From IMG/VR virus record IMGVR_UViG_3300032676_000214, positions 1-21,785 of that record: a stretch of 21,785 bases of DNA; one strand, given 5' to 3'. A program made the translations under genes and the position numbers. The notes below the pieces were generated by a model that was not told the DNA's origin, ran no database searches, and saw only the letters and a list, made by a program, of their open reading frames with translations. Source of the stretch: a virus. Each line of letters opens with the position of its first letter. Position 1 is the stretch's first letter. Below, piece by piece: positions 4,355 through 21,785 of the stretch.

Positions 4355-4575
4355 AATTCTCATTTAGCGCATTATTCTCTTTATTTAAAAAGCCTGAGCT
4401 AGAGATTTCTTTTGACCCAAAGGAAACAGCTCCTTGGCCTTTCCCTGTTCCTGCAGAAAAGCGTCCACAGGTAAAAAAGGCTACTACTCGTACAGCTAAA
4501 AAGCCTGCAGTTAAGAAAGCTGTTGCTAAAAAAGCTACAACTGTTGCTAAAAAGAAAACAAAAAAGGCTGACTAA
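4351..4575 (+). CDS. Small protein with H1-histone-like Lys/Ala tail
   Basis: This 74-residue protein has a short hydrophobic/acidic N-terminal part (MKFSFSALFSLFKKPELEIS), a proline-rich hinge (ETAPWPFPVPAEKRP) and a C-terminal half (about 41-74) made of AKK/VKKA repeats such as KKPAVKKAVAKKATTVAKKK. The tail is like linker-histone or bacterial HU-type tails and should bind DNA or other polyanions non-specifically. The N terminus is too short for a clear signal peptide or membrane anchor, though residues 3-12 are hydrophobic. ATGA overlap with the previous gene; TAATG overlap with the nuclease gene that follows. Function unknown. Confidence 0.55.
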   Translation: MKFSFSALFSLFKKPELEISFDPKETAPWPFPVPAEKRPQVKKATTRTAKKPAVKKAVAKKATTVAKKKTKKAD

Positions 4576-5114
4576 TGTCTACTTTTGCTTATATACATTG
4601 CAAACCAGATGGAACTCCCTTTTATGTAGGTAAAGGAGTATTGCGTCGTGCAAAGTATTTAGGCGAGCGTAATCCATATCATAAAGCAGTAGTTACTAAA
4701 TATGGAAAAGAAAACATTCTTATTGGAAAGCTAGAATGCTCTTCAGACGATATTGCATTTGAGCTGGAAAAAGGACTAATTAAGTGTCTAAAAGATTCTG
4801 GACTAAAGCTGACTAATTTTACTGATGGTGGAGAAGGTGGAGTTAATCCAATTCCTGAAACACGTCAACGATTATCTGAGGCTGCCAAAAAACGTGGTGT
4901 TTCTAAAGCATGTCAAGAAGCTAAAGTTAAAGCTTTAAAAGGAAAAAGTTTATCTAATGAACATAAAGAAAAACTTAAAAAAGCTCAAACTGGTAAAATA
5001 TTTACTGAAGAACACCGCAAGAATATAAGTATTTCAGCAAAAAAACGGGGCATGGAAGCAGCTCGCATAGGATTAGCATTAAAACGTTTAAATTTAAAGG
5101 AAAATAAAGCATGA
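4575..5114 (+). CDS. Free-standing GIY-YIG homing endonuclease, NUMOD3-type tail
   Basis: This 179-residue protein has a variant GIY-YIG nuclease domain: AYI (5-7) and YVGKG (17-21) replace the GIY and YIG elements, followed by R24/R25, a Glu in FELEKGLIK (E63 or E65) and N81 in LTNFTDGGEGG, at the usual places of the catalytic Arg, Glu and Asn. The C-terminal part (about 94-160) carries NUMOD3-like DNA-binding motifs (RQRLSEAAKKRG; SNEHKEKLKKAQTG; TEEHRKNISISAKKRG). Such enzymes cut a target in uninvaded genomes so that their own gene is copied in. It shares TAATG and ATGA overlaps with both neighbours, so it is stitched into the operon. Catalytic competence cannot be proven from sequence. 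Confidence 0.82.
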   Translation: MSTFAYIHCKPDGTPFYVGKGVLRRAKYLGERNPYHKAVVTKYGKENILIGKLECSSDDIAFELEKGLIKCLKDSGLKLTNFTDGGEGGVNPIPETRQRLSEAAKKRGVSKACQEAKVKALKGKSLSNEHKEKLKKAQTGKIFTEEHRKNISISAKKRGMEAARIGLALKRLNLKENKA

Positions 5115-6058
5115 GTACTAGTGGCACTAATTCCTTTAATTTGGATGTAAACGATATAATTGAAGAAAGTTTTGAGAGGTGTGGTAAAGAGCTTCGCACA
5201 GGATATGATCTACGCACCGCTGCTAGATCTTTAAACCTATTGACCATTGAATGGGCAAATAAAGGTATTAATCTTTGGACAGTAGAGCAAAAGCAGTTTG
5301 TAATGAATTCTGGTCAGGCTATCTACGCACTTCCTGTAGATACAATTGACATTTTGGATGCCGTAACACGCCAATATAACGGCTACACAACCAATCAAAT
5401 TGATATTAATTTAAGCAGAATTTCTGAGTCTACATACATAACCATTCCAAACAAGAATGCTACTGGTCGCCCAATTCAAATGTATGTAAACCGTCAGTCT
5501 GGGAATATTGCTTCCATTCCGCAAACTACATTAGCCACAACAGGAACCACACCTGTGGTATCTGCTACGGATACAACGATTACTTTAGTTGATGCCTCCG
5601 GTCTTCCAACTCAAGGCTTTATTAATATTGATGATGAAACTATTGCATACCAAAATATTGTTGGAAATCAAATTGTTAATGCTTGGCGTGGTCAAAATGG
5701 CACAACTGCTGCAGCTCACAATGCTGGCGCCCAAGTATTTGTAAACCAACTGCCTTGTGTAAACGTTTGGCCTACACCAAATACACCTGGAAATCAGTAC
5801 ACTTTTGTTTACTACCGCTTACGCCGCATTCAAGATGCTGGATCTGGAATTAATACTCAAGATATTCCATTCCGCTTTATACCGGCTATGGTAGCTGGAT
5901 TAGCCTATCACCTTAGCGTTAAGCTAGAGGGTGTAGATCCAAACAGAATTATTGGTTTAAAGCAGGCATATGACGAGACATTCCAATTGGCAGCAGATGA
6001 GGATAGAGAAAAGGCATCTTTAAGATTTGTACCGAGAAACCTTTATTACTATAACTAA
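5111..6058 (+). CDS. Head-tail connector/tail accessory protein (P22 gp4-like) with inserted module
   Basis: This 315-residue neck protein should bind below the portal and help close the head. Its N-terminal helical part (DVNDIIEESFERCGKELRTG, residues 12-31, then AARSLNLLTIEWANKGINLW) and C-terminal part (RLRRIQDAGSGINTQDIPFR, then GLAYHLSVKLEG) are typical of the gp4-like tail-accessory proteins I recall from aquatic podoviruses. Residues about 151-211 (5561-5743) interrupt the scaffold between MYVNRQSG and CVNVWPTP with a beta module (TTITLVDASGLPTQGFINID ... RGQNGTTAAAHNAGAQVF), also present twice in gene 19832. AAAGG (5096-5100) precedes the start, and the ATGA overlaps the nuclease stop. 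Confidence 0.75.
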   Translation: MSTSGTNSFNLDVNDIIEESFERCGKELRTGYDLRTAARSLNLLTIEWANKGINLWTVEQKQFVMNSGQAIYALPVDTIDILDAVTRQYNGYTTNQIDINLSRISESTYITIPNKNATGRPIQMYVNRQSGNIASIPQTTLATTGTTPVVSATDTTITLVDASGLPTQGFINIDDETIAYQNIVGNQIVNAWRGQNGTTAAAHNAGAQVFVNQLPCVNVWPTPNTPGNQYTFVYYRLRRIQDAGSGINTQDIPFRFIPAMVAGLAYHLSVKLEGVDPNRIIGLKQAYDETFQLAADEDREKASLRFVPRNLYYYN

Positions 6059-6060
6059 TC

Positions 6061-6495
6061 ATGCCAAGTAAGTACTCGTCAGGTAAGTATGCAATCGCCG
6101 AATGTGATCGGTGTGCGCAGCGTTATAAGTTAAAGGAATTACGGATACAGACCTTAAAAACTAAGCCGTATCGGGTAAAGGTATGTAAAACTTGTTGGGA
6201 TCCAGATCAGCCACAATTACAATTGGGCATGTATCCAGTAAACGATCCACAAGCAGTTTACGAGCCTCGTCCTGATGTTAGCTATTATCAGTCTGGAAAT
6301 ACAGGTTTATTGACTAATTTATATGATCCAAATGTCAATAATGCCGATGAGTATGGATATCCTTTGGATGGTAGTAGGCAGTTTCAATGGGGTTGGAACC
6401 CCGTAGGTGGAGCAAGTTACTTTGACCGTGCGCTTACTCCAAATAGCTTGATTCCAGTGATAACAGTAGGTACAGTTACGATACAAACAACATAG
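6061..6495 (+). CDS. Neck-region protein with four-cysteine zinc motif
   Basis: In this 144-residue protein C15 and C18 (ECDRCAQRYK) and C42 and C45 (VCKTCWDPD) form a zinc-ribbon-like set, followed by QPQLQLGMYPVNDPQA, a stretch I recall as highly conserved in this family of aquatic phage proteins, always beside the connector gene. The rest is rich in Y, N, P and G and likely extended (GYPLDGSRQFQWGWNPVGG). It follows the connector by 2 bases and so probably belongs to head completion or the neck. Zinc binding is inferred from the cysteine spacing. There is no sign of an enzyme. Confidence 0.65.
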   Translation: MPSKYSSGKYAIAECDRCAQRYKLKELRIQTLKTKPYRVKVCKTCWDPDQPQLQLGMYPVNDPQAVYEPRPDVSYYQSGNTGLLTNLYDPNVNNADEYGYPLDGSRQFQWGWNPVGGASYFDRALTPNSLIPVITVGTVTIQTT

Positions 6496-7088: not shown

Positions 7089-8030
7089 ATGAATTATTAC
7101 CAGCTGTTATCTGCAGTACAGGACTATACAGAAAACCAATTTCCAATAACTTACTTGGAGGATGGAACAACTGTATCTTCTGTACAACAGATTAACAGAA
7201 TGATTGAACAAGCTGAGTTGCGTATTTATAACTCAGTTTTAATTCCATCATTAAGAAAGAATGTGACGGGTGTGCTTACTGCAGCCAATCCCTATTTGTC
7301 CTCCCCAAATGACTACCTGTCAACATTTTCTCTTGCTGTAATTGATTCAAGTGGCAACTATACTTACCTCTTAGATAAAGACGTTAACTTTATTCGTCAG
7401 TCTTACCCAAACCCAACATACCAAGGTACCCCCCGGTATTACGCTATTTTTGGCCCTCAATACTCTTATCCAAACGAGCTATCGTTTATTATTGGTCCAA
7501 CACCAGACCAAAACTATAATGTAGAACTGCATTACTATTATTATCCAGTGTCTATTATCCAAAGCGTTGCAGCAACATTGGGAGCAATTACTAATCCAGG
7601 GTCTGGATATATTACTGGAATATACAACAATATTCCTGCGACTGGCGGTAGTGGAGATGGCCTTTTATTAAATATAACTACATCTGGCGGAATTGTAACA
7701 AGCGCATCTATTTCTTATGGCGGATCTGGATACAATCCAGGAGATGTTATTACAGCCACAATTGGAACCGCTGGAACAGGGTTTTCAACTACCGTTGCAA
7801 CAGTTAATAATCCAACTGGAACTTCATGGATTGGAGACAATTTTGATACCGTTTTATTGTACGGAACGCTTGTTGAAGCGGCTACCTATATGAAGCAAGA
7901 GGCTGATTTGGTCGCCCTTTACACCAATAAATATCAAGAAGCAATGCAGCAGCTTAACCGTCTTGGAACAGGTCTTGAGCGTAGTGATGCTTACAGAAGT
8001 GGTCAAGCTAGAATTAAGGTTACTCAATAA
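7089..8030 (+). CDS. Phage adaptor/neck protein with inserted GSGY-type module
   Basis: This 313-residue protein has a helical N terminus (LLSAVQDYTENQFP; INRMIEQAELRIYNSVLIPS), a central LLDKDVNFIRQSYPNPTYQG, PRYYAIFGP and FIIGPTPD, and a C terminus GDNFDTVLLYGTLVEAATYM ... QQLNRLGTGLERSDAYRSG. This order matches a widespread adaptor-type neck protein of aquatic phages that connects portal and tail. Between ELHYYYYPVSI and TSWIGDNF, residues about 158-243 (7560-7817) hold an extra Gly-rich module with two GSGY elements (NPGSGYITGIYNNIPATGGS; GGSGYNPGDVITATIGTAGT). The inserted module is probably a surface domain. No clear ribosome binding site precedes ATG 7089; translation may depend on coupling. 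Confidence 0.65.
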   Translation: MNYYQLLSAVQDYTENQFPITYLEDGTTVSSVQQINRMIEQAELRIYNSVLIPSLRKNVTGVLTAANPYLSSPNDYLSTFSLAVIDSSGNYTYLLDKDVNFIRQSYPNPTYQGTPRYYAIFGPQYSYPNELSFIIGPTPDQNYNVELHYYYYPVSIIQSVAATLGAITNPGSGYITGIYNNIPATGGSGDGLLLNITTSGGIVTSASISYGGSGYNPGDVITATIGTAGTGFSTTVATVNNPTGTSWIGDNFDTVLLYGTLVEAATYMKQEADLVALYTNKYQEAMQQLNRLGTGLERSDAYRSGQARIKVTQ

Positions 8031-14314: not shown

Positions 14315-14965
14315 GTGAGTGATGTAAATAAAGAATTACAAGCATTTTATTATTTTCCTTCTGCTGTTTATGCTATTGATAAACCTGAATTTTTAAAAGA
14401 TGCAAAATTAGCTTGCGAATTAGCCATTGAAAAACAAAAAAAAGACCAGCCATTAGATGAAATTTATCCTGCTTATATGACAGGAAATTTATTTGATTAC
14501 GATGGCATGGATAAATTTGCCGAGTTTGTAGGTCAAACTGCTTGGAATATTTTGTTTGAGCAAGGCTACAAAATGAACGAATTGAATACCCATTTTACAG
14601 AAATGTGGGCGCAAGAACACCACAAACATTCTTCAATGGAACAACACGTTCACAATTATGGCTCACAAATTGTAGGTTTTTATTTTGTTGATGTTCCAGA
14701 AAATAGTTCGAGGGCTATATTCCATGACCCTAGGGCAGGAAAAGTTCAAATTAATTTGCCCGAAGAAAATGTAGAAAATGCAACACCTGCAAGCAATATG
14801 ATTAATTTTGAGCCAAAAGAAGGTTTATTGTTGTTTTCCAATGCTTGGTTGCCTCATTCATTTACTCGTCATTCTTCTGAAAAACCTATTCGTTTTATTC
14901 ATTTTAATTTAGGGGTTCAACCTGCCCCAGCGCAAACAACTTGTAAGCCTGCGGAAGTAATATGA
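14315..14965 (+). CDS. 2OG-Fe(II) oxygenase-like protein
   Basis: This 216-residue protein starts at GTG 14315 with AAGGA (14304-14308) six bases upstream. The core reads EQHVHNYGSQIVGFYFVDVP (109-128), RAIFHDPRAG, then LLLFSNAWLPHSFTRHSSEK (171-190) and RFIHFNLG, the order found in the small 2OG-Fe(II) oxygenase family (2OG-FeII_Oxy_5) carried by phages. H111/H113 and H181 are likely iron ligands and R193 may bind 2-oxoglutarate; the carboxylate ligand I cannot place, so activity is uncertain. The substrate is unknown: host metabolite, protein, nucleic acid and virion protein are all possible. It lies among virion and fibre genes. Confidence 0.78.
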   Translation: MSDVNKELQAFYYFPSAVYAIDKPEFLKDAKLACELAIEKQKKDQPLDEIYPAYMTGNLFDYDGMDKFAEFVGQTAWNILFEQGYKMNELNTHFTEMWAQEHHKHSSMEQHVHNYGSQIVGFYFVDVPENSSRAIFHDPRAGKVQINLPEENVENATPASNMINFEPKEGLLLFSNAWLPHSFTRHSSEKPIRFIHFNLGVQPAPAQTTCKPAEVI

Positions 14966-19073: not shown

Positions 19074-19790
19074 TTATATGAGTCCTTTACGTTTAGCCCA
19101 TGCCAACTTCATTGATGCAGATATTTTTGCTTGGACTTCTGGTGACCGCAAAGCCGCAACTCGTTTGGCTTTAATTTCTGGATCAGAGTTAAGGGTTTTA
19201 TTAAAAGCATGTATTGGATGGTTAGGATCTAAAAGTGCTTGTTTACGAGCCTCTTTGCTTTCATTGGAGTGTATTTGTTTCCCCTTTTTATTAGCAATCA
19301 TAGTTGCTTTATATTCTGGATCTGCCCATTTAGCTTTAATTTTTGCACGAACTTCAGGACGTTTAGCTGGATTATTTTCTCCAGTAAATTTAGCCTTTAC
19401 ATCTGGATCGTTCATACGTGCATTTAGTTTAGCCCGAACTTCAGATCTAGACATGGGATTGTTTTCTTTCATCCGTTTGCTGGTAGCCAATTTCCCAGCA
19501 TCAGTCATTCCTGGAGATCCATCGCCTCCCGGCTTTAAATTAGTTAAAGTGCCTGTTTCAAGCTGTATTCTTCCGTGCTTTTCTATTAAACTACGCTCTA
19601 ATATTTTGGCCTCTTCTATGGTGTCTACTGTATGAAGCTCAGTTACTACATTTTTTGGTCCAATTTTTTTAAGTGTTTGTTTACAAAGCCAACCACGCCC
19701 ACCAGCATTAAGCGGGTTAGCTCTGCCAGCAGATTTTGTCATGCCAACATAAAAAGGGATGTCGTTGTGTTTCCAAACGTATACAAACAT
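19074..19790 (-). CDS. Free-standing GIY-YIG homing endonuclease, minus strand
   Basis: This 238-residue protein is the only gene on the minus strand. Its N-terminal domain shows VYVW (3-6) and FYVGMT (13-18) in place of GIY and YIG, with R23, E66 or E70 and N84 at plausible catalytic positions. The C-terminal half has repeated basic NUMOD3-like elements: NNPMSRSEVRAKLNARMNDP, NNPAKRPEVRAKIKAKWADP and DPEIKAKRVAALRSPEVQAK. AAGGAG lies 7 bases before the start on the minus strand. It converges on the endolysin with a 4-base gap and sits immediately upstream of the tail gene at 19832, so it is probably a mobile insert. It is distinct from the nuclease at 4575. Confidence 0.82.
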   Translation of the reverse strand: MFVYVWKHNDIPFYVGMTKSAGRANPLNAGGRGWLCKQTLKKIGPKNVVTELHTVDTIEEAKILERSLIEKHGRIQLETGTLTNLKPGGDGSPGMTDAGKLATSKRMKENNPMSRSEVRAKLNARMNDPDVKAKFTGENNPAKRPEVRAKIKAKWADPEYKATMIANKKGKQIHSNESKEARKQALLDPNHPIHAFNKTLNSDPEIKAKRVAALRSPEVQAKISASMKLAWAKRKGLI

Positions 19791-19831: not shown

Positions 19832-21785
19832 ATGTTACAAAAGATACAGTTCCGTCCAGGTATCAATAGAGAAGGCACCAACTATTCAAACGAAGGTGGC
19901 TGGTACGATTGCGATAAGATTCGTTTTCGCTCTGGCTATCCCGAAAAGATTGGCGGATGGAATCAAGCTACCCCTGGATATAATTATCAGGGCGTATGCC
20001 GTGCAATGGTTAACTGGATTGACCTCAATAACAATAACCTGATTGGTGTTGGAACTCACCTTAAGTATTACATTAATCGTGGTCTATATTATGATATTAC
20101 CCCGTTAATTCATACTTCTACAGGTCTATCTGACCCGTTTACCACAACCACTGGATCTCAGTTGGTTACAGTTTATGACCCAGGATTTTCTGGCACAACA
20201 GGGCAATATGTAAGCTTTACTGGAGCTACAGGGTTTAATGGCATTTCTGCAGCTAGCCTAAATACAGAGTTTACTATTACTAATGTTATTGACTCTACGC
20301 ACTATCAAATTACTCTTCCAGCAGGTGTTACTCCAACAGGTAATGGATCAGGTGGTGGCACAGTAAATGCCTACTATCAGATTGCTGTTGGTTTGCCAGC
20401 CTATACTACTGGTAATGGATTTGGCGCTGGCCCATGGAACGGAACCAATGTTTCCTCTACTGTTTATACCACGCTAACTTATACATCTGGATTGCAGACT
20501 CACGGAGACTTGTTAAACAGTACTTCCACAACAATTAATGTAACTAGCACAATTGGATTTCCAACTTCTGGAACAATTATTATTGATGCTGAACTTATTA
20601 CCTATAGCGGTACGACTTCAACAAGTTTTACAGGATGCGTTCGTGGTGCCCCCTATCAAGATCCCAACGCAACATATAAAACAAGCACCACAGCCACCGC
20701 TGTTGGTACTGGAGATACCTCGATCCAATTAGCAAACACTTCTGGATTTATTGTGCCGCTATCTGGTGGTTATGCTACCATTAAAATTGATAGCGAATTT
20801 ATTACCTATACAGGCATTACAAGCTCATCAAATACTTTAACTGGCTGTACCCGTGGCGCATATGGCACAACAGCAGCAACCCATTTATCAGGCGCAACAG
20901 TTAATCAATACAATGAATCTTATGCGGTTTATCATGGCACTAGACCAACGAATGGCACTCCAGTAGCCCCCACCGTTTATTCTGTTACTGGATACTTAGG
21001 AAGCACAGGATGGGGTCAAGCCACTAACGGCGCAGGAAATACAGTTGGCGAGCAAATGCGGGTGTGGACTAATGATAACTATGGTCAAAACTTGCTTATT
21101 GCCCCTCGTGGTGGTCCTATTTATTATTGGATAAATGACACTTCTAACTTCCCAAGGGCTGTTCAATTGTCCGTTTCATCCCCAGCTCCATATACTACAG
21201 ACGTTCCTATTGTAGGAACTAATCAGGTATTGGTCTCAGACGTATCTCGTTTTGTAATTGCTATGGGATGCAACTCTTATGGATCAACTACATTTGATCC
21301 TATGCTGGTTCGTTGGTCAGATCAAGAAAACCCACTAGTATGGACTCCACAAATTACAAACCAAGCTGGTGAATTAAGGCTTACAAACGGCTCATACATT
21401 ATGCAAGCCAAGCGTAACCGTCAAGAGATTCTTATCTGGACAGATTCCGCTCTATATTCTATGCAGTATGTTGGCCCTCCCTATGTTTGGGGATTCAACC
21501 TTATGATGGATAATATCTCAATCACAGGTCCAAACTCTGCGATTGTGGTAAATAACGTTGCTTACTGGATGGGTAACGATAAGTTCTACAGCTATTCTGG
21601 CGTAGTACAAACCCTTCCTTGTGCAGTGCGTCAATATATTTTTGATGATCTTAATTATGACCAGCGTTTCCAAGTAGTTGCTGGATCTAATGAGCGCTAT
21701 AACGAAGTTTGGTGGTTCTATGTGTCTAACGCCGCAGTTGCTGCAGCCGCACAAACAAACACTGTACCTCTAGTAGATAAGTATG
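19832..21785 (+). CDS. Tail protein, gp10-like (3' partial)
   Basis: The frame is open from ATG 19832 to the window edge (651 codons, no stop), so the C terminus is missing. AGGA (19817-19820) is an acceptable ribosome binding site. The start LQKIQFRPGINREGTNYSNE followed by GGWYDCDKIRFRSGYPEKIG is a highly conserved opening that I recall from large tail proteins of aquatic podoviruses. DQRFQVVAGSNERYNEVWWF near the C-terminal end resembles gp10-like packaged-DNA stabilisation proteins. Residues 106-183 form an FCCH-like beta module. Residues 230-284 and 294-361 are two copies of a small module (ITYSG/ITYTG ... GC.RGA) also inserted in the connector at 5111. It probably seals the head-tail channel; that role is inferred. 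Confidence 0.72.
   Translation, partial: MLQKIQFRPGINREGTNYSNEGGWYDCDKIRFRSGYPEKIGGWNQATPGYNYQGVCRAMVNWIDLNNNNLIGVGTHLKYYINRGLYYDITPLIHTSTGLSDPFTTTTGSQLVTVYDPGFSGTTGQYVSFTGATGFNGISAASLNTEFTITNVIDSTHYQITLPAGVTPTGNGSGGGTVNAYYQIAVGLPAYTTGNGFGAGPWNGTNVSSTVYTTLTYTSGLQTHGDLLNSTSTTINVTSTIGFPTSGTIIIDAELITYSGTTSTSFTGCVRGAPYQDPNATYKTSTTATAVGTGDTSIQLANTSGFIVPLSGGYATIKIDSEFITYTGITSSSNTLTGCTRGAYGTTAATHLSGATVNQYNESYAVYHGTRPTNGTPVAPTVYSVTGYLGSTGWGQATNGAGNTVGEQMRVWTNDNYGQNLLIAPRGGPIYYWINDTSNFPRAVQLSVSSPAPYTTDVPIVGTNQVLVSDVSRFVIAMGCNSYGSTTFDPMLVRWSDQENPLVWTPQITNQAGELRLTNGSYIMQAKRNRQEILIWTDSALYSMQYVGPPYVWGFNLMMDNISITGPNSAIVVNNVAYWMGNDKFYSYSGVVQTLPCAVRQYIFDDLNYDQRFQVVAGSNERYNEVWWFYVSNAAVAAAAQTNTVPLVDKY

Follow-up and report, generated by a model that had tools for sequence, protein, structure and literature searches.

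The question raised by this locus is why the neck protein of a phage should carry, within its scaffold, a small module that recurs twice in a tail protein of the same genome, a pattern for which an initial annotation of the DNA had proposed the lateral shuffling of a surface domain within virions. The DNA in question, hereafter the window, is the whole analyzed stretch of 21,785 nucleotides (IMG/VR record IMGVR_UViG_3300032676_000214) and comes from a freshwater short-tailed phage. That phage proteins exchange small domains is established, and neck passage proteins are among the recent cases (Smug et al. 2023, PMC10684548). Here, the answer that we favor, with a probability of about 0.82, is that the module belongs to a small beta-domain type used promiscuously by tailed phages, which was inserted independently in loops of the portal adaptor and of the nozzle, and then inherited with these genes.

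A Domain Inserted in the Portal Adaptor

The features of the window around the neck protein are as follows:

5111–6058, plus strand: portal adaptor of 315 aa, the ring protein that connects head and tail; Pfam SU10_adaptor and AlphaFold2 (AF2) fold match
~5498–5755, plus strand: adaptor insert of ~85 residues (~130–215) including the module; missing in the adaptors of several isolates
~5525–5752, plus strand: folded part of the adaptor insert, from the AF2 model
6061–6495, plus strand: protein of the phrog_28581 family, module-free in the window; gene after the adaptor
7089–8030, plus strand: second adaptor-family protein, without the module and with a GGSGY-type insert; Pfam SU10_adaptor, E 1.4e-16

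The assignment of the neck protein to the portal adaptors lies first on its match to Pfam SU10_adaptor (PF24175), with an E value of 1.3e-8 and 36 bits, above the curated cut-off of 27, and its relatives bear annotations such as "Pam1 adaptor protein," "tail adaptor," and "portal-adaptor protein." Its AF2 model (mean pLDDT 80.7) presents the SU10-type helix bundle and beta dock, with helices 13–23, 32–50, 254–271, and 277–300 surrounding a beta-domain, and Foldseek matched it with a probability of 1.00 to eight chains from solved phage tails or portal–tail complexes, headed by portal–tail chains of cyanophage A4, Vibrio phage VP1, GP4, KHP30, and SU10. It is this fold search that placed the protein among solved structures, as PDB searches with the adaptor sequence or profile returned noise only. 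Judged by the adaptor, DSL-LC04 and HTVC023P-type phages are the nearest named relatives of the window phage.

In the model, the insert is placed between strands 123–127 and 216–220 of the beta-domain; the module spans residues ~139–214, and the blocks covering residues 151–220 have mean pLDDT values of 93–96. The matching solved adaptor chains are ~190–236 aa long, close in size to adaptors that lack the module. The stretch that had first drawn attention, at 5561–5743, falls within this insert.

Other genes of the window deserve mention in their own right. The GGSGY-type insert of the second adaptor-family protein (residues ~160–243) matches many PHROG structural families and represents a parallel case of domain insertion. 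Relatives of the phrog_28581 protein in HTVC027P and in contig L351 have a module-like C-terminal part (L087 3439–4311; L351 5509–6360, minus strand). Finally, a structural protein at 1983–2522 weakly resembles E1_FCCH (PF16190, E 7.5e-4, below cut-off), and the tail genes include, at 14315–14965, one for a putative 2OG-Fe(II) oxygenase (PF13759).

One Domain Family in Two Virion Proteins

The tail protein and its small domains are laid out as follows:

19832–21784, plus strand: nozzle/tail hub, P22 gp10-like; phrog_3287, E 1.4e-54; 3' end open at the window edge
20132–20392, plus strand: nozzle domain H, a small domain of another type than the module; HMM built from nozzle core domains
20507–20656, plus strand: nozzle module copy 1, site B, shortened after RG; homology, beta-strands in the AF2 model
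20687–20926, plus strand: nozzle module copy 2, site B, complete; homology, AF2 block with pLDDT 80–97

The phrog_3287 match pairs residues 1–638 of this protein, whose gene is incomplete in the window, with positions 4–326 of the 524 in the profile, and its residues 435–636 gave PDB sequence matches, at E 2e-13 to the Pa223 tail chain 9nwi_Y and at E 6e-4 to the VP1 nozzle gp16. The H domain is recognized at E 5.7e-32 by an HMM of which the window sequence is itself part, and second H copies in relatives at E 3e-8 to 9e-21. Module copy 1 preserves the part that ends in "RG" but has lost or never had the GTTAAxH tail.

The initial annotation had taken the module of the neck protein and the two in tandem in the tail protein for copies of one another, and three lines of sequence evidence bear this out. 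Searched against the window's own record, the 64-aa module found three places, namely itself, 20702–20902 (E 1e-6), and 20513–20647 (E 4.5e-5). Local alignments of the copies scored 75, 93, and 104, where 1,000 shuffles reached at most 48, 52, and 69. The profile–profile comparison that had been suggested as a check was highly significant, hhalign aligning the adaptor-module profile (33 sequences) with the nozzle-module profile (18 sequences) over 70 columns (99.7%, E 9.2e-26) and also recovering the profile of the first nozzle copy (five sequences; 97.9%, E 6.3e-13). Structure prediction, the second suggested check, gave AF2 models of the adaptor and the nozzle in which the module displays a similar order of short beta-strands. 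The adaptor and nozzle copies are thus confirmed by sequence comparison as one domain family of ~70 residues, whose most conserved residues are E, Y, R, G, T, and H and whose predicted fold is barrel-like, with six to seven short strands.

An Optional Insert in Both Families

The connector scaffold had been described as continuous in relatives, and it is indeed so in many of them: in the isolates DSL-LC04, HTVC023P, CRP-901, CRP-902, Pag-Yong1, and ct7L0027, adaptors of ~215–231 aa have a short turn in place of the ~85 residues of the window. Among the collected viral contigs, 164 adaptors have the module and 92 lack it, in sets partly shaped by the queries, so that this ratio is not to be read as a frequency. 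Adaptor lengths fall mostly in two groups, at ~220 aa (most module-free adaptors) and at ~300–320 aa (module-bearing ones). A tree built from only the scaffold places the carriers in approximately one clade, with four exceptions and four Fitch changes. Three of these contigs' adaptors (L277, L325, and L165) lack the module yet fall within the carrier clade, with low support for their exact position, so that losses and early branches are both possible. Outside this clade, the adaptor of the pelagiphage HTVC027P bears the same module in a different loop nearer the N-terminus, and the adaptor family phrog_7578 also has it near the N-terminus.

The HTVC027P-type loop receives a different domain in the adaptors of Caulobacter phage GB2A and of ctpbd312 (L091 2372–3358 and L092 1736–2794), which is located in the first beta-domain loop and appears discoidin-like by eye. 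The adaptor of phage 023Pt_psg01 (L088 2129–3226) has yet another, extra N-terminal domain, with a YYCTAHSGMGN motif and cupredoxin-like by eye.

Given its near-universal retention in the carrier clade, the module may have become needed there; across the adaptor family as a whole, it would be dispensable for ring assembly, since the scaffold also occurs without it.

The nozzles are more variable. The stretch between their N- and C-terminal parts counts ~80 residues without inserts, ~150–160 with a module at site A, and 271 in the window, which has two modules at site B. The ~80 residues correspond to the small domain H, of which many relatives have a second copy at site B. Denoting the module as M, we distinguished nine arrangements among 180 distinct nozzles (H, HH, HM, MH, HMM, M, MHH, HHMH, and MHM), in a sample biased by the fact that part of the loci were fetched via the module motif, and in which truncated contigs may explain some arrangements, such as M alone. 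That search used a DNA pattern for the motif RGxxGTTAAxHxxGA, and the loci that it yields are preselected for the module and do not give unbiased frequencies. The module occupies three positions in nozzles (site A, site B, and a C-terminal site), and the nozzle scaffold tree implies approximately seven changes at site A and three at site B. The survey of relatives therefore identifies the module as an insert, and not a core part, in both families. The gene following the nozzle (289–297 aa where complete) was also seen to contain a module copy in L323, L326, L267, L272, L286, L287, and L304.

An apparently recent change of this kind is seen in two contigs from two different metagenomes, L263 and L265, whose nozzles are 99.5% identical over 640 aligned amino acids and differ by the module. 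At the DNA level, the two genes agree at every base up to the site, where L263 has ~225 nt and L265 15 nt, in frame, and they are 99.94% identical over the 1,712 bases that follow. A third contig, L277, has an empty site that starts with nearly the same bases as that of L265, which makes a gain in L263 the simpler reading. Barring an assembly error in this one pair of metagenome contigs, the step would thus be recent and probably a gain, a loss being the alternative. A recombination breakpoint at the module, considered in view of the lower upstream identity of the two contigs, was rejected, as upstream of the module they differ only up to position 436, which precedes the gene. A search for a homing endonuclease gene in L263, L265, and L277 found none.

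Other Carriers and Possible Functions

The module extends well beyond adaptors and nozzles. Further carriers include the baseplate wedge and other structural proteins of cyanophages, a tail tube protein of Pelagibacter phages, a T4 gp15-type sheath stabilizer, a phrog_442 head–tail adaptor, tail fibers, and collar fibers, one fiber combining three modules with CBM_5_12 domains (four matched stretches). In BFVD, 72 viral models were matched at E ≤ 0.001, tail fibers and tail sheath among them. A BFVD model from outside the phages, A0A2H4UVI4_2 of the giant Bodo saltans virus, aligned over 82 columns of the module model with 41% identity.

In Pfam, the module gives sub-threshold matches only. 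The single family touched by both module sequences is Rcc01698_C (PF23666), from a gene transfer agent tail protein, whose match covers the RG...GT...H...G part of the module at E 0.08 and 0.13, with 13–14 bits against a cut-off of 27. No Ig family was found in Pfam at E 10, nor any hit described as Ig among the listed PDB fold hits, and NCBIfam returned nothing for the carrier proteins. The best PDB fold matches, although all weak by E-value (0.012 at best), are to virion proteins, namely a component of the VP1 capsid map, the JBD30 baseplate, tailspikes, and a tail tube. The JBD30 baseplate chain ranks second (Foldseek probability 1.00, E 0.027), and residues 495–555 of the JBD30 tip attachment protein give a weak sequence match (E 0.52) that agrees with it, both scores being below usual significance. 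Both chains would be the same protein and, going by residue numbers, the matched part would be hub domain VI, which, much as predicted for the module, is a small barrel, here of six strands, and which provides stabilizing contacts inside the baseplate (8rk3; PMC11445458).

The adaptors of SU10 and T7 have a beta "fiber dock" domain, and T7 fibers sit between the docks of adaptor and nozzle (PMC9509320, PMC6702177); since the insert of the window is in a loop of this type of domain, the initial description of the module as a surface domain is plausible. It would decorate the exterior of neck and nozzle as an accessory domain, with 12 adaptor copies in a ring of the usual dodecameric type, and there it may pack against or dock fibers, stiffen the tail, or add weak contact with the host surface. 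We lean toward a general decoration that would make weak contacts, of which two narrower forms can be envisaged.

According to the first, which we hold as a tentative possibility, the module would be a sugar- or surface-binding domain mediating weak host attachment, in the manner of the Ig-like and carbohydrate-binding domains of other virions. This would fit its scattering across exposed virion proteins, its position beside CBM_5_12 domains in one fiber, and the fact that it is optional and shuffled like receptor-related domains (PMC10684548). However, the conserved E, Y, R, G, T, and H may be structural, and our searches revealed neither a binding-site signature nor a known binding homolog.

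The second form, about as tentative and slightly less likely, would make the module a dedicated tail-fiber dock, matching sites on the adaptor ring and the nozzle holding fibers or other tail proteins. The numbers would agree, with 12 adaptor copies in a dodecamer and 12 in a nozzle of six subunits with two modules each; the adaptor insert lies in the domain type that docks long fibers in SU10 and T7, and the JBD30 hub domain VI stabilizes a baseplate through its contacts (PMC11445458), a JBD30 baseplate chain being the second-best fold match. Against such a pairing, the nozzle copies vary from zero to two and shift in site while the adaptor module stays, and the same module occurs within fibers and sheath-related proteins.

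Routes of Spread

The several copies per genome, those of the nozzle being in tandem, could suggest that duplication spread the module inside the genome, in either direction between adaptor and nozzle. Copies of the same genome are only 31–53% identical, however, when those at the same site in other phages are 50–98% identical, and the similarity of the window copies at the DNA level is confined to short fragments. Together, these comparisons argue against a recent duplication; with sequences this short, an ancient one is conceivable, and we judge duplication within the genome improbable overall. Most copies group with those at the same position in other phages, although site grouping is imperfect, a few second nozzle copies having their nearest neighbors at another nozzle site. 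Since same-genome copies are so divergent and mostly group by site, the insertions of the window are old and inherited with their genes.

It is about equally improbable that homing endonucleases adjoining both genes drove the spread through co-conversion of flanking DNA: GIY-YIG/NUMOD-like genes are found directly upstream of the adaptor (4575–5114) and beside the nozzle (19074–19790), with weak NUMOD3/GIY-YIG Pfam matches below cut-off, and homing-endonuclease genes are slightly commoner near module-bearing nozzles (6/31 vs. 1/43, uncorrected for relatedness), but one lies near only 2 of the 140 module-bearing adaptors with an upstream flank, and the link is not general.

The idea of lateral shuffling thus holds for the domain family overall, which is found at several sites and in several virion proteins and for which one apparently recent event was seen, and is not supported for recent copying within one genome. 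With regard to independent insertion, the reading that we prefer, recombination would bring in the module, which would fold on its own and have ends suited to the tips of loops. The gene pair with and without the module suggests that its gain or loss in phages is still going on, and we would put at even odds the broader proposition that this widespread, unnamed beta-domain is an actively mobile in-frame cassette that enters core neck and nozzle proteins, and not only fibers, and whose presence segregates today.

Comparison with Known Systems

As far as the libraries used here show, the module family itself, its use in adaptor and nozzle, and the near-identical gene pair are new, and a limited search of the open-licence literature found no description of the family. 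Adaptor and nozzle are usually viewed as conserved parts of the DNA channel, yet several of their loops have taken up a shared cassette, and the near-identical nozzles with and without the module constitute a clean natural test of the role of such domains. A practical consequence is that annotation through shared domains can mislead, as the same ~70 residues match tail fiber, baseplate wedge, and head protein families in PHROG.

The scaffolds that carry the module are known ones, namely SU10-type portal adaptors and P22 gp10-type nozzles. The SU10 nozzle also holds small inserted domains, four Ig-like domains being inserted in its propeller (PMC9509320), which differ in type and number from the module of the window. 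More generally, the module resembles the Ig-like and other add-on domains of phages (PMC10684548) in being common to unrelated virion proteins, optional, and probably moved by recombination, and it differs from them in belonging to another family and in being hosted, in a short-tailed phage, by the nozzle and by the ring of portal adaptors.
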